Below, piece after piece: positions 54,855 to 63,632 of a DNA stretch of 64,000 nt (positions are counted from its first letter, which is position 1; the number at the start of each line of letters is the position of its first letter). The position numbers and the translations under genes are program-made. The notes beneath the pieces were generated by a model. That model was not told the origin of the DNA. It searched no databases and saw only the letters and a list, made by a program, of their open reading frames with translations. This DNA comes from Nitrospira tepida (GTDB lineage: Bacteria; Nitrospirota; Nitrospiria; Nitrospirales; Nitrospiraceae), in assembly GCF_947241125.1 (NCBI RefSeq), contig NZ_OX365700.1, positions 4,126,461 through 4,190,460 on the forward strand, written 5' to 3'.

Positions 54855-54931
54855 TGGTCGGGGCGGCGGGATTTGAACCCACGACCCCTCGCACCCCAAG
54901 CGAGTGCGCTACCGGGCTGCGCCACGCCCCG
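54855..54931 (-). tRNA. tRNA-Pro (anticodon TGG), CCA encoded
   Basis: 77 bases including the encoded CCA. The acceptor stem is CGGGGCG/CGCCCCG with A as discriminator; the anticodon loop reads CTTGGGG, giving anticodon TGG; the T loop is GGTTCAAATCC. All four arms fold normally. Confidence 0.97.
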
Positions 54932-55814: not shown

Positions 55815-57470
<1,656 letters not shown>

Positions 57471-57527: not shown

Positions 57528-58757
57528 TCAGGCTCCGACGCGCGCCGCGTCCAGCCCGAAGGCGGAGTGCAGGGCGCGCATCGCCAACTCCATGTACTTT
57601 TCCTCGACGACGCAGGAAATCTTGATCTCCGATGTGCTGATCATCATGATGTTGATCCCTTCGCGGGACAGCACCTCGAACATTTTAGCCGCCACGCCGG
57701 AATGGGAGCGCATGCCTACCCCCACCAGCGAAACCTTTGCCATTGCTTCCGTCACCGCGACGGATTTGGCGTCGATCTCCTTGGCGATCCGCTGGACCAG
57801 ATCGACGGCCTTGGCCAGGTCCGCGCGTGGGACGGTGAAGGAGATGTCCGTCAGGGAGCCCTGGCTCACGTTCTGGATGATCATATCGACCACGATGTTG
57901 GCCTGTGCCACAGGTCCAAAGATCTTCGCCGCGATCCCAGGACGGTCCGGCACCCCGACGATCGTGAGCTTGGCTTGATGGCGGTCTCCGCTCACTCCCG
58001 AGACCATGACCCGTTCCATATCCTCGTCTTCACGTGTCACGAGCGTCCCCTTTCCCTCTATAAAGCTCGACTGGACTTCGACGGGCACGTTGAATTTGGC
58101 GGCGAACTCGACCGATCGGCTCTGAAGCACTTTCGCGCCCAGGCTTGCCAATTCCAGCATCTCTTCATAAGAAACCCGATCCAGCCGCCTGGCGGCCGGC
58201 ACGACATTGGGGTCGGCCGTGTAGACGCCGTCGACGTCGGTAAAAATAATGCATCGGTCGGCCTTGAGCGCCCCGGCCAGCGCCACAGCCGTCAAGTCCG
58301 ACCCTCCGCGGCCCAGCGTTGTCACGTCGGATCGCGCATTGATCCCCTGAAACCCCGCCACGATGGGAATGACCCCCTCCGCGATGGCCTCCTTGATCCG
58401 CTCGGCCGTCACCCTCGTGATGCGCGCCTTGGTGTGGGAACTGTCCGTCATGATCCCGACCTGTCTCCCCGTAAACGAGCGGGCATTGATCCCCCGCCCC
58501 TGTAGCTCCATGGCGAGCAGCGCGATCGTGACGCGCTCTCCGGTCGAGAGCAACACGTCCAGCTCCCGCTCGTCCGGATGGGCGGTCACCTCCCTGGCGA
58601 GACGGATCAGCCGATCGGTCTCTCCGCTCATGGCGGACAGCACGACGACCACATCGTGTCCCTCGCCCTTGGCCTTCGCCACCCGGTCCGCCACGCGATG
58701 GATCCGTTCCACGGTGCCCACCGACGTGCCGCCATATTTGTGCACGAGCAGCGCCAT
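57528..58757 (-). CDS. lysC: Aspartate kinase
   Basis: 409 residues, monofunctional. The kinase domain begins [17 protein letters not shown] and includes [13 protein letters not shown]. Two ACT domains follow (about 265-330 and 345-405, the latter [19 protein letters not shown]), the feedback site for lysine or threonine. It makes aspartyl phosphate, the first step toward lysine, methionine and threonine. It is six bases downstream of the apgM-like gene in the threonine block. Confidence 0.96.
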
Positions 58758-58762
58758 AGTGG

Positions 58763-60007
58763 CTACCGTTTCAACAGCCGCGCGAGCAGTCGCAACCCAT
58801 CGCGCGGAGGCGCGCCCGGTTGGGTCGCGTGGGTTTCGTCAAATCCGACGCCCGCCGACCCCTCACCCTGTTGCGACGTATCGAGTAGGGCTGCAAGCGC
58901 CTGATAGCTCGGAGGCTTCTGTTCGGTCAATTGCTCCGACTGGTCGCAGACTACGAGCAGACGGGACGGCCCGTTCTGCGTCAGTTCCTCCAGTAGCGGC
59001 CCAACCAGATCCTGATCAAATGCCGACACCGCCTTGGCCTTGCCCTGCTCATCCGAATCCGGCGAGGCCAGATCGGCCAAGCTCACGTGGAGATAGACCA
59101 AGTCTTTCCGTGACAATTCCGCCAGGGCGCGTTGCCGGAGAAGCGGCAAGCCAGCCGGGCCTTCCTGCGCCCCATCCACATCCACCGCCTCGAATCCCGC
59201 GCAAATGCCCAATCCGCGATGAAGGGTGCTCAACGCGACCATCGAACCGGTGATCCCGAACCGTTCCGTGACCGGAGGCCACAGGGGAGCGCGCCCCTGC
59301 CCCCACAACCAGAGGCAGTTGGCGGTCTTCAAGCCGGCGTCGCGCCGATCCAGATTGACGGGATGGTCGCGCAGAATAATCATCGAAGCGTCCATCAGCT
59401 TGCGCAGAATATCCGCTCCATCCCCGGTCGGCAGATACTCCCCGATCTGATGTCCCTCCACGGCCTTGGGATTGTGGCAGACGGCCCGGGCCTTGCCATT
59501 GACCCAGACCATGAAATGTTCGTGGCGGTCGCCGGGATAAAACTGGATCGTCTCGGACCCCACCTGTTCATTGAGGGCATCGATCAGTTCGCGCGCCTCA
59601 TCGGTTTCGATTCCACCCGCTCTGGCGTCCTCCAGCACCGCCTGCGGACTCAGTTTCTTGGGATCGGCGGAGGCGGCTCGGCTGGCCTGGGGCTGGTCGG
59701 CCCGCATCGTGACCAGGTTGCATCGGTAGACGACATCCTGTTCCCCCACTGTGATGCCGAGGCCTGCGGCTTCCAGCGGCGCCGGTCCCGTCGAGTATTT
59801 GTGCGGATCGTATCCAAGAATTGTCAGCCCGGTCAGCTCGCCGGTCGGCGCCATCCCTTCGGACGGAATCGCCGCCCATCCGAATTCACCACAGCGCGCA
59901 ATGCGATCGAGATTGGGCGTCTTGGCCACCTCGAGCACCGATTTCCCCGCTAATCCCGGCTGAGGTCCGTCCGCAAACCCTTCTGCGTGGAGTATCAGAT
60001 ATTTCAT
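58763..60007 (-). CDS. Phosphoglycerate mutase / proposed homoserine kinase-like protein (apgM family) with a degenerate metal site
   Basis: 414 residues from the ATG at 60007. The full length aligns with the cofactor-independent mutase family: [63 protein letters not shown]. Relatives between lysC and thrC have been proposed as homoserine kinases in genomes without ThrB, which fits this position. However, residues that bind the two metals look lost: DGMAD reads EGFAD, GSD reads PTG, DEAGH reads DLASP and DH reads DQ. A non-catalytic or altered function is possible. Comparison is from memory of the family. Confidence 0.75.
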
Positions 60008-60027: not shown

Positions 60028-61086
60028 TCACAACCGGAGCAACCGCGCAACCTCCTCACGGTTGGCCTTGACCGTCACCGGCTGAACGGACACACCCATG
60101 GCGGTATCCGGGTCCTTGAGCCCATGGCCCGTGAGCGTGCAAACCACCACCGCTCCCTCCGGCAGCGCCTTGTTCCGCCACAATTTGGCCACGCCGGCCA
60201 CAGAGGCGGCCGAGGCCGGCTCGCAGAAGACTCCCTCTTCGCGGGCCACCAGTTTATAGGCGTCCAGAATCTCTTCATCGGTCACCATGTCGATCAAGCC
60301 GGAGGACTCCTCCACCGCCGCCAACGCTCCCTGCCAACTGGCCGGGTTGCCGATCCGGATGGCCGTGGCGATCGTCTGCGGCTGCTCAACGATATGGCCG
60401 AGCACGATCGGCGCCGCGCCCGCTGCTTGAAATCCGACCATGCGCGGGCGTCGCGTCGTTTGTCCCGCGCGGTGATACTCGCAATAGCCGCGCCAGTAGG
60501 CCGTGATGTTTCCCGCATTGCCCACCGGCAACGCATGGATCGTCGGAGGCTCCCCCAACTGATCACAGACCTCCATGGCCGCGGTCTTTTGGCCCTCGAT
60601 CCGGAACGGATTGATGGAATTGACCAGTTCGATCGGCTGCGTCGCCGCCAACTCCTTCACGATCGTCAAGGCCTGATCAAAATTCCCTTCGATTTGGATC
60701 ACGACCGCGTGGTGCATCATCGCTTGAGACAACTTGCCCAGCGCGATCTTCCCGGCCGGAATGAGCACATAGACAGCAAGGCCGGCGCGCGCGCCATAGG
60801 CCGACGCGGAGGCCGACGTGTTGCCGGTGGAGGCGCAGATCACCGCTTTGGAGCCGGCCTCGACCGCCTTGGAGATCGCCAAGGTCATGCCGCGATCCTT
60901 GAACGATCCCGTGGGATTGGCCCCTTCGAACTTCAGATAGAGGCGGGCGCCGGGAGCCACTCGCGCGGCCAATCGGCCGGCTTCGATAAGCGGAGTATTC
61001 CCTTCTCCCAACGTGATCACGGGGGTGCGGTCCGTGACAGGAAGGAATTTACGGTATTCTTCGATCAGGCCGCGCCAGCGAGGCAT
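60028..61086 (-). CDS. thrC: Threonine synthase
   Basis: 352 residues, the short bacterial type. The PLP lysine is in NPTGSFKDRGMTLA; ASTGNTSASASAYGARAG forms the phosphate cradle and GNAGNITAYWRGYCEY the second glycine loop. It converts O-phosphohomoserine to threonine, so a homoserine-phosphorylating enzyme must exist. It lies between hom (45 bp upstream) and the apgM-like gene, which is 20 bp downstream. Confidence 0.96.
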   Translation of the reverse strand: MPRWRGLIEEYRKFLPVTDRTPVITLGEGNTPLIEAGRLAARVAPGARLYLKFEGANPTGSFKDRGMTLAISKAVEAGSKAVICASTGNTSASASAYGARAGLAVYVLIPAGKIALGKLSQAMMHHAVVIQIEGNFDQALTIVKELAATQPIELVNSINPFRIEGQKTAAMEVCDQLGEPPTIHALPVGNAGNITAYWRGYCEYHRAGQTTRRPRMVGFQAAGAAPIVLGHIVEQPQTIATAIRIGNPASWQGALAAVEESSGLIDMVTDEEILDAYKLVAREEGVFCEPASAASVAGVAKLWRNKALPEGAVVVCTLTGHGLKDPDTAMGVSVQPVTVKANREEVARLLRL

Positions 61087-61131: not shown

Positions 61132-62445
61132 CTATTCGTCCGGACCTTCAACGCGGATCAACATCGGCGGCTCCGACACGAACGACATCCGTCCGATCTT
61201 GCGCAACGCGGTTTGCACGGACCGCTCGGCGGCCTGGTGCGTCCGGATGACCACCGGGACCGTTTGTCCCTCTTTCCGCCCCTGTTGCAGAACGGAGGAG
61301 ATGCTAATGCCATGTTGGCCAAGCACCCCCGCAATCTGCGACAAGACGCCGGGGCGATCCACGACCATGAACCGCAGATAATAAAGGGATTCAATGTCGG
61401 CCATGGGCCGCACGCGAAGCGGACGCCGCTGGTCCGGCTGGAAGGACGCGGCAGGCACGCGCCCGACGCCGCCCGTCACAAGGTTGCGCGCAATGGAGAG
61501 AATGTCGCTGACGACCGCGCTCCCGGTCGGCATGGAACCGGCCCCTTGTCCATGGAGCATCACGTCGCCAACCGCATCGCCGACCACTTGAATGGCATTG
61601 TAGACGCCGTGCACCTGCGCGATCGGGGACGAAACTGGAATCATGGTCGGGTGCACTCGCGCTTCAATCTCTCCTTCCATCAATTTGGCGATGCCGAGCA
61701 ACTTGATGACGTACCCGAATTCTTTCGCATAGGCGATGTCGAGCGGCGTCAGCTTCGTGATGCCTTCCGTGTAAATATCTTTGACGTCGACCGGCGTCCC
61801 ATAGGCCAGGCTCACCATGATCGCGAGCTTGTGGACGGAATCGATCCCCTCCACATCGAACGTCGGGTCCGCCTCCGCGTAGCCGGCCCGCTTGGACTCC
61901 TCCAGCACCTCTTCGAAGGCCAGTCCTTCCTGGGTCATCCGGGTGAGGATGTAATTCGAGGTGCCGTTGATGATGCCGTAGATCGACAGGATGCGATTGG
62001 CCGCCAACCCCTCGGTCAGCGCGCGGATAATGGGAATGCCTCCGCCCACGCTGGCCTCGAAGGCCAAATCCACCTTCTGGCGGCTGGCCGCTTGGTACAG
62101 CTCTTCCCCATGAACGGCCAGCAAGGCCTTATTCGCGGTGACCACCTGCTTGCCCTTAGCGATGGCTTCGAGAATGAGGTGCTTCGCGACCTCGTAGCCT
62201 CCGATCAACTCGACCACGATATCGACGTCAGGATCGTCCAACACCTGGCGGCTGTCCTGCGTCAACATTCCCGCAGGGAGCGACAGGCCTCGGTCCCGCG
62301 CCACATCCAGGTCCGCAATCCGGATCAGTTCCACCGGCACGCCGACGCGGCGGCGGATCAAGCCCGCGTTGTCCAGCAGAATTCTGGCTACGCCGGTCCC
62401 GACCGTGCCGAATCCAACGATGCCGACTCCCACCCGCGACTTCAC
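61132..62445 (-). CDS. hom: Homoserine dehydrogenase
   Basis: 437 residues. The NAD(P) domain is [19 protein letters not shown]; the catalytic part has [14 protein letters not shown] and [21 protein letters not shown]-terminal ACT domain ([20 protein letters not shown]) gives feedback control. It reduces aspartate semialdehyde to homoserine. Its start overlaps the aminotransferase stop by four bases, so the two are coupled. Confidence 0.96.
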
Positions 62446-63632
62446 GGCTCAGGCCCTTCCAGCTTCAACGCCCGCTTGATCCCCCGCACCGCTTGCCTGG
62501 TCCGGTGCTCATTCTCGACCAGCGCAAACCGGACGTATTCGTCCCCGCCCTCCCCGAAGCCGATGCCGGGCGAAACGGCGACCTTCGCCTCGCGCAACAA
62601 CAGCTTGGAAAATTCCAGCGATCCCATGGCGCGATAGGCCGGAGGAATGCGGGCCCAGACGAACATGGTGGCCCGTGGCAGATCGACCGCCCATCCAATT
62701 CGGTTCAGCCCGTTCACCAGCACATTGCGCCGCTTTTGATAGCGTTGGACCGTTTCTTTGACGCACTCCTGCGGACCGTTGAGCGCGATGATGCTCGCGA
62801 TCTGCAACGGCTGAAAGATCCCGTAATCCAAGTAGCTCTTGATCTTGCCTAACGCCCCGACGATCTCCCGATTCCCCACGCAGAACCCCACGCGCCAGCC
62901 CGGCATGTTGTAGCTCTTGGACAGGGTGTAAAACTCCACCCCTACGTCCTTGGCCTCGGGAATTTGCAACAAGCTGGGCGCCTTGTACCCGTCGAATACG
63001 ATATCCGCGTAGGCCAGGTCATGAATCACGATCAGATTGTGCTCCTTGGCGAACACGACGATCTTTTTAAAAAACTCCAGGTCCACGACCGCGGTCGTCG
63101 GATTGTGCGGAAAGTTGATGACCAGCACCTTGGGTCGCGGCAGCGTTTGCTTATAGGCCTGCAACAGATCCGAGAAAAAGTCGCTGTCCGGACGGAGAGG
63201 AACGCCGCGCACTTCGCCGCCTGCAATGATCACGCTGTACATGTGAATGGGATAGGTCGGGGTCGGGGTCAGGACGACGTCGCCCGGCCCCAGCATAGCC
63301 AGCGCCAGGTGCGCGATCCCTTCCTTGGACCCGATCGTGACGATCGCCTCCGTCTCGGGGTCCAGCTCGACGTCGTAGTTTCGCCGGTACCAGGCCGTGA
63401 TCGCATGGCGGAGCTTGGTGATGCCGCGGGACGCCGAGTAGCGATGGTTGGTCCCCTTTCGCGAGGCCTCGATCATCTTCTCGACGATATGCGCGGGCGT
63501 CGGTTGGTCCGGATTGCCCATGCCGAAGTCGATGATGTCTTCCCCGCGGCGCCGGGCCTCCTGCTTGAGGGTTTGGACCTGAGCAAAGACGTAGGGAGGT
63601 AATCGCTTGAGACGAGGAAAACTATCGAACAT
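62442..63632 (-). CDS. alaC: PLP-dependent aminotransferase, AlaC (alanine transaminase) type
   Basis: 396 residues, fold type [20 protein letters not shown] and [16 protein letters not shown] are the substrate-side blocks, and [19 protein letters not shown] holds the PLP lysine. Blocks such as [20 protein letters not shown] agree with the AlaC/YfdZ group rather than with aspartate or LL-diaminopimelate transaminases, though these are neighbours in the family. First gene of the block hom-thrC-apgM-lysC. Substrate is inferred. Confidence 0.88.

Follow-up and report, generated by a model that had tools for sequence, protein, structure and literature searches.

Proteins of the TIGR02535 family, also called ThrB2, have been proposed as homoserine kinases. 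Bacteroides thetaiotaomicron needs one of them, BT2402, to grow when threonine is absent, and this protein did not rescue an Escherichia coli thrB mutant (PMC7311316). The zinc ligands of BT2402 are conserved (PMC9765024), and in gut genomes ThrB2 and ThrB show complementary occurrence (PMC9026213). A non-orthologous homoserine kinase has a precedent in Desulfovibrio, in which the shikimate-kinase-like enzyme DvMF_0971 is a proven alternative (PMC5764234).

The ApgM-like gene and its operon

We analyzed a 64,000-nucleotide stretch of the Nitrospira tepida genome (the window), in which a gene of this type lies in a threonine operon with the order aat-hom-thrC-[ApgM-like gene]-ask-cimA, so that hom and aat are upstream and cimA is downstream of it:

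62442-63632, minus strand: aat, alanine transaminase family
61132-62445, minus strand: hom, homoserine dehydrogenase
60028-61086, minus strand: thrC, threonine synthase (TIGR00260, 317 bits; cut-off, 167)
58763-60007, minus strand: ApgM/TIGR02535-like protein gene (414 amino acids) with a dismantled metal/nucleophile site, assigned from family profiles, alignment and fold
57528-58757, minus strand: ask, aspartate kinase, the next gene downstream (5 nt from the ApgM-like gene)
55815-57470, minus strand: cimA, citramalate synthase

The original prediction had put the gene in the genomic slot of the proposed homoserine kinases, and hom-thrC-gene-ask is indeed the arrangement of TIGR02535 relatives; in the Nitrospirales loci compared, the ApgM-type protein stays in the threonine operon throughout. 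The open reading frame starts with the ATG at 60007, a GTG eight codons upstream being an unlikely start because the orthologues begin MKY or MKx. No second TIGR02535-type locus was found in the genome, which is a single contig of 4.73 Mb. The only Rfam match near the gene was a tRNA; a tRNA gene lies at 54858-54931 on the minus strand.

The protein passed the gathering scores of PF10143, the PhosphMutase domain (146.3; threshold, 21.5), and PF01676, the metalloenzyme superfamily (33.3; threshold, 24.3). With TIGR00306 (ApgM) it scored 300.5 bits, under the cut-off of 320, which the N. defluvii orthologue passed at 351.9. Its predicted structure (mean pLDDT, 92.5) matched that of archaeal ApgM along the whole chain (Z scores of 38.5 for 2zkt_B, over 359 residues at 3.0 Å, and 33.2 for 3kd8_A). 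Thus, in fold the protein is like the archaeal phosphoglycerate mutase along its entire length, whereas the identity is only ~23% and the catalytic residues are not kept. Likewise, it is homologous to BT2402 over the full length and has the same neighbors, thrC, hom and ask. However, BT2402 keeps its zinc sites (PMC9765024), whereas the window protein has lost the Ser nucleophile and the ligand His residues, and its TIGR02535 score is 287.6 bits (E value, 1.3e-85) against a cut-off of 446.3.

Loss of the catalytic site within the order Nitrospirales

In cofactor-independent mutases, one metal is bound by Asp-His-His and the other by Asp-Ser-Asp-His. We scored eight aligned positions, namely, these seven ligands and the Asp that follows the Ser. 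The window protein reads EGEDPDQP at these positions, in contrast to DSDDHDHH in all 30 canonical Nitrospirota homologues, which were the best-scoring loci in the TIGR02535 search and thus a chosen rather than a random set. The affected blocks, all on the minus strand, are as follows:

59975-59983, minus strand: EGF, residues 9 to 11 (canonical DGM); Glu in place of the first metal-ligand Asp
59837-59845, minus strand: TGE, residues 55 to 57 (canonical GSD); Gly in place of the Ser nucleophile
59060-59074, minus strand: DLASP, residues 312 to 316 (canonical DEAGH); Asp kept, His lost
58940-58945, minus strand: DQ, residues 355 and 356 (canonical DH); Asp kept, His lost, and the next ligand His also absent

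The nucleophile and all three ligand His residues are therefore gone, D312 and D355 are retained ligand positions, and the change of D9 to Glu is conservative. By alignment, these two Asp residues (and E9) are all that remains of the two-metal site of PF01676. Pairwise alignment with the solved 2zkt placed the N-terminal blocks and DAAGH/DLASP in this register as well. The block readings of the original prediction, including the missing following His, were correct throughout, and its comparison with TIGR02535 relatives and a solved ApgM, now carried out on the 30 canonical rows and 2zkt, confirmed the losses. Nor do the canonical ligands reappear elsewhere in the chain: the remaining His residues are at 7, 69, 162, 164, 178, 186, 215, 263, 307 and 393, with none in the segment from 351 to 372. 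A sequencing slip is ruled out because the site is likewise incomplete in a sister genome (L102, 62% identical) and in every other Nitrospiraceae row.

We found that the change is order-wide. An intact eight-position site occurred in 0 of 104 rows from the same family, Nitrospiraceae (f1; some rows are near-duplicates), 0 of 17 from a second Nitrospirales family (f2) and 0 of 6 from a third (f3). The last ligand His was missing from all 104 Nitrospiraceae rows. Closest to intact was a group of 29 rows of the N. defluvii type (DSDDHDP-), which lack the last two His residues and keep six of the eight positions, Ser included. The f3 proteins keep His, but Asp is changed to Asn in six of six and Ser is changed in four of six. 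Replacements at the site thus differ between lineages, and in a quick tree f1 and f2 were separated from f3 and the canonical proteins with an SH-aLRT of 100. Together, the split and the differing patterns imply erosion along more than one path, and the alignments indicate that the machinery of the phosphatase domain has been dismantled differently by lineage. In another order, an operon homologue (L152:5076-6296; N S D D P D H P) has lost ligands as well, and its genome encodes a GHMP ThrB that scores above the cut-off.

Search for another homoserine kinase

Growth of Nitrospira in mineral medium, together with the kept thrC, suggests threonine prototrophy in these organisms. Among the 99 Nitrospirales genomes sampled, none had a GHMP ThrB (TIGR00191) above the cut-off of 168.25; above-cut-off GHMP ThrB does occur in other families of the class. 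Only one of the 99 (G283, a member of f3, in which the sites are not intact) exceeded the TIGR02535 cut-off, with 468.8 bits. In the N. tepida genome, the search for ThrB_alt (TIGR00938; cut-off, 255.9) gave at best 22 bits, to an AmgK-like gene, and the sole GHMP gene is IspE.

We listed the GHMP and APH genes of twelve Nitrospirales genomes, eleven of them near-complete. Those examined were IspE, HddA/fucokinase-like, AmgK-like or maltokinase-like, the rest being without assignment. As substitutes, the GHMP kinases were rejected, since those examined were IspE or an HddA/fucokinase-like gene. The AmgK-like APH kinase was judged an unlikely substitute: in both G081 and G179 it adjoins a MurU-like gene, and it is also found in ThrB-bearing relatives, and it therefore reads as a cell wall recycling enzyme, although it falls below the AmgK cut-offs. 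This APH-family kinase, at L230:1267-2409 (G000:C1:3638321-3639460) in N. tepida, is present in nearly all sampled Nitrospirales and lies far under those cut-offs. A second shikimate-kinase-type gene would follow the DvMF_0971 precedent, a family unrelated to the window protein, but the Nitrospirales mostly have a single SKI match per genome; a bifunctional AroK may be considered. A ThrC with a changed substrate was rejected as well, 152 of 161 outgroup-invariant columns being mostly kept. ThrC residue 153 (gene at 60028-61086) is Thr in 20 of 20 outgroup rows and is kept in essentially no Nitrospirales row, with Glu in the window.

Thus, no known homoserine kinase was found as a replacement in the Nitrospirales sampled. 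A literature search yielded nothing relevant on a Nitrospira homoserine kinase, on ApgM pseudoenzymes or on the Nitrospirales case. The complete genome G081 has IspE as its only GHMP gene, an AmgK-like gene as its strong APH match, one SKI match and no ApgM-type gene.

Constraint, absence and the probable role of the protein

An ApgM-type match was present in 125 of the 147 genomes of the order. In the fetched loci of the f2 genera g13 and g15 and of f40, hom, thrC and ask are present and thrC is directly followed by ask, with a gap of 31 to 215 nt and no gene between them. In G206, the slot (L201:9751-11008) holds a frameshifted, stop-ridden ApgM-like remnant in an otherwise intact threonine operon, and G137 and G243, of the same genus, have full ApgM-like genes. 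The gene is therefore absent or wrecked in some relatives in which hom and thrC are intact, a finding that, like the order-wide change, adds to the original prediction.

Where the gene persists, its sequences indicate purifying selection. The dN/dS ratio had a median of 0.108 and a maximum of 0.249 over 244 pairs (thrC, 0.048; ask, 0.044), and protein distance relative to ThrC/Ask was 1.29 in canonical proteins, 2.79 in f1 and 2.76 in f2, i.e., about twice as fast in the last two. From canonical proteins to f1, column entropy fell from 0.98 to 0.70 in the PF10143 domain (residues 123 to 240) and rose from 0.71 to 1.95 in residues 276 to 300, from 0.82 to 1.44 in the C-terminal metal core and from 0.76 to 1.12 in the N-terminal core, a rough comparison in that the two samples are unequal in size and divergence. 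Judged from these alignments, the constraint is inverted, with the metal core released and the PF10143 domain held tighter in the Nitrospiraceae than in the canonical enzymes. H164, N218, R221, W233 and W235 are among the residues retained in both f1 and f2.

The original prediction left open a pseudoenzyme or a changed mechanism. We consider it somewhat probable that the window protein is a pseudoenzyme descended from an ApgM-type homoserine kinase candidate and has been retained to bind a ligand or to serve in regulation, while another enzyme provides the homoserine kinase activity. This branch fits best because the nucleophile and most ligands are lost, the losses vary among relatives, the gene is under purifying selection and the PF10143 domain is kept; both the inactivity and the regulatory role are inferred. 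The empty or wrecked slots beside intact hom and thrC, and the ligand losses of L152 in a ThrB-bearing genome, also speak for it. Pointing the other way, D312 and D355 are kept, the N. defluvii type retains six of eight positions, the searches turned up no substitute kinase, and the residues fixed in the Nitrospiraceae (H7, 98%; C354, 95%; C231, 99%) would also be expected of a rebuilt active site.

The main rival, which we regard as unlikely though it deserves attention, is that O-phosphohomoserine is still made by a changed mechanism, using one metal or none together with new residues such as H7, C354 and D355 and the retained PF10143 pocket, and that the gene-less relatives use something else. 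The presence of the gene in 85 of 86 listed same-family genomes is in keeping with this, as are the lack of any other known homoserine kinase among the genomes searched, the purifying selection and the lineage-fixed H/C/E residues, two of which adjoin old site residues. However, the old site residues vary freely in close relatives (at least 30 combinations among the 104 rows), which is unusual for a working active site; moreover, the metal core is less conserved than the PF10143 domain, and the gene is missing or wrecked where hom and thrC are intact. It is improbable that the protein now serves an unrelated reaction, either as its enzyme or as a binding protein: new Nitrospiraceae-wide residues and a conserved PF10143 domain would suit that idea, but the gene is always inside the threonine operon and the PF10143-region residues common to canonical proteins (R163, H164, N218 and R221) are kept. 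A decaying relic without function, to which the faster evolution relative to its neighbors, the G206 wreck and the absences in g13, g15 and f40 might point, is very improbable given that the frames of the aligned Nitrospiraceae rows are open over their full length, that dN/dS is ~0.11 and that PF10143 is conserved above the canonical level. That the protein is the cell's phosphoglycerate mutase is scarcely credible: although a GpmI match is absent from the genome and the one histidine-phosphatase protein tested scored 58.8, below the pgm_1 cut-off of 81.7, the Ser nucleophile and ligand His residues are absent and the genome has four histidine-phosphatase loci.

If the protein is a retained pseudoenzyme, the ancestor of the order may have gained another homoserine kinase, which would have freed the ApgM-type protein from catalysis; the protein would then have been kept for its ligand-binding domain. 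It would probably act noncatalytically, as a partner or by sensing homoserine, O-phosphohomoserine or threonine, with ThrC, Ask or Hom, from the same operon, as proposed targets. More tentatively, the Nitrospirales as a whole may make threonine through an undiscovered type of homoserine kinase, with the ApgM-type protein of the threonine operon now binding a ligand as a noncatalytic partner or sensor.

Going by its name, one would take the gene to encode a mutase or the homoserine kinase that is missing, and it very probably encodes neither. The relatives offer a natural series within one operon, from intact enzyme to disarmed protein, wreck and empty slot. What was a vague gap is now well defined: hom and thrC are kept, but no homoserine kinase is recognized, in a whole order to which the Nitrospira nitrifiers belong. 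Small complete genomes are places to look for the missing enzyme, and G081 is the sharpest case.
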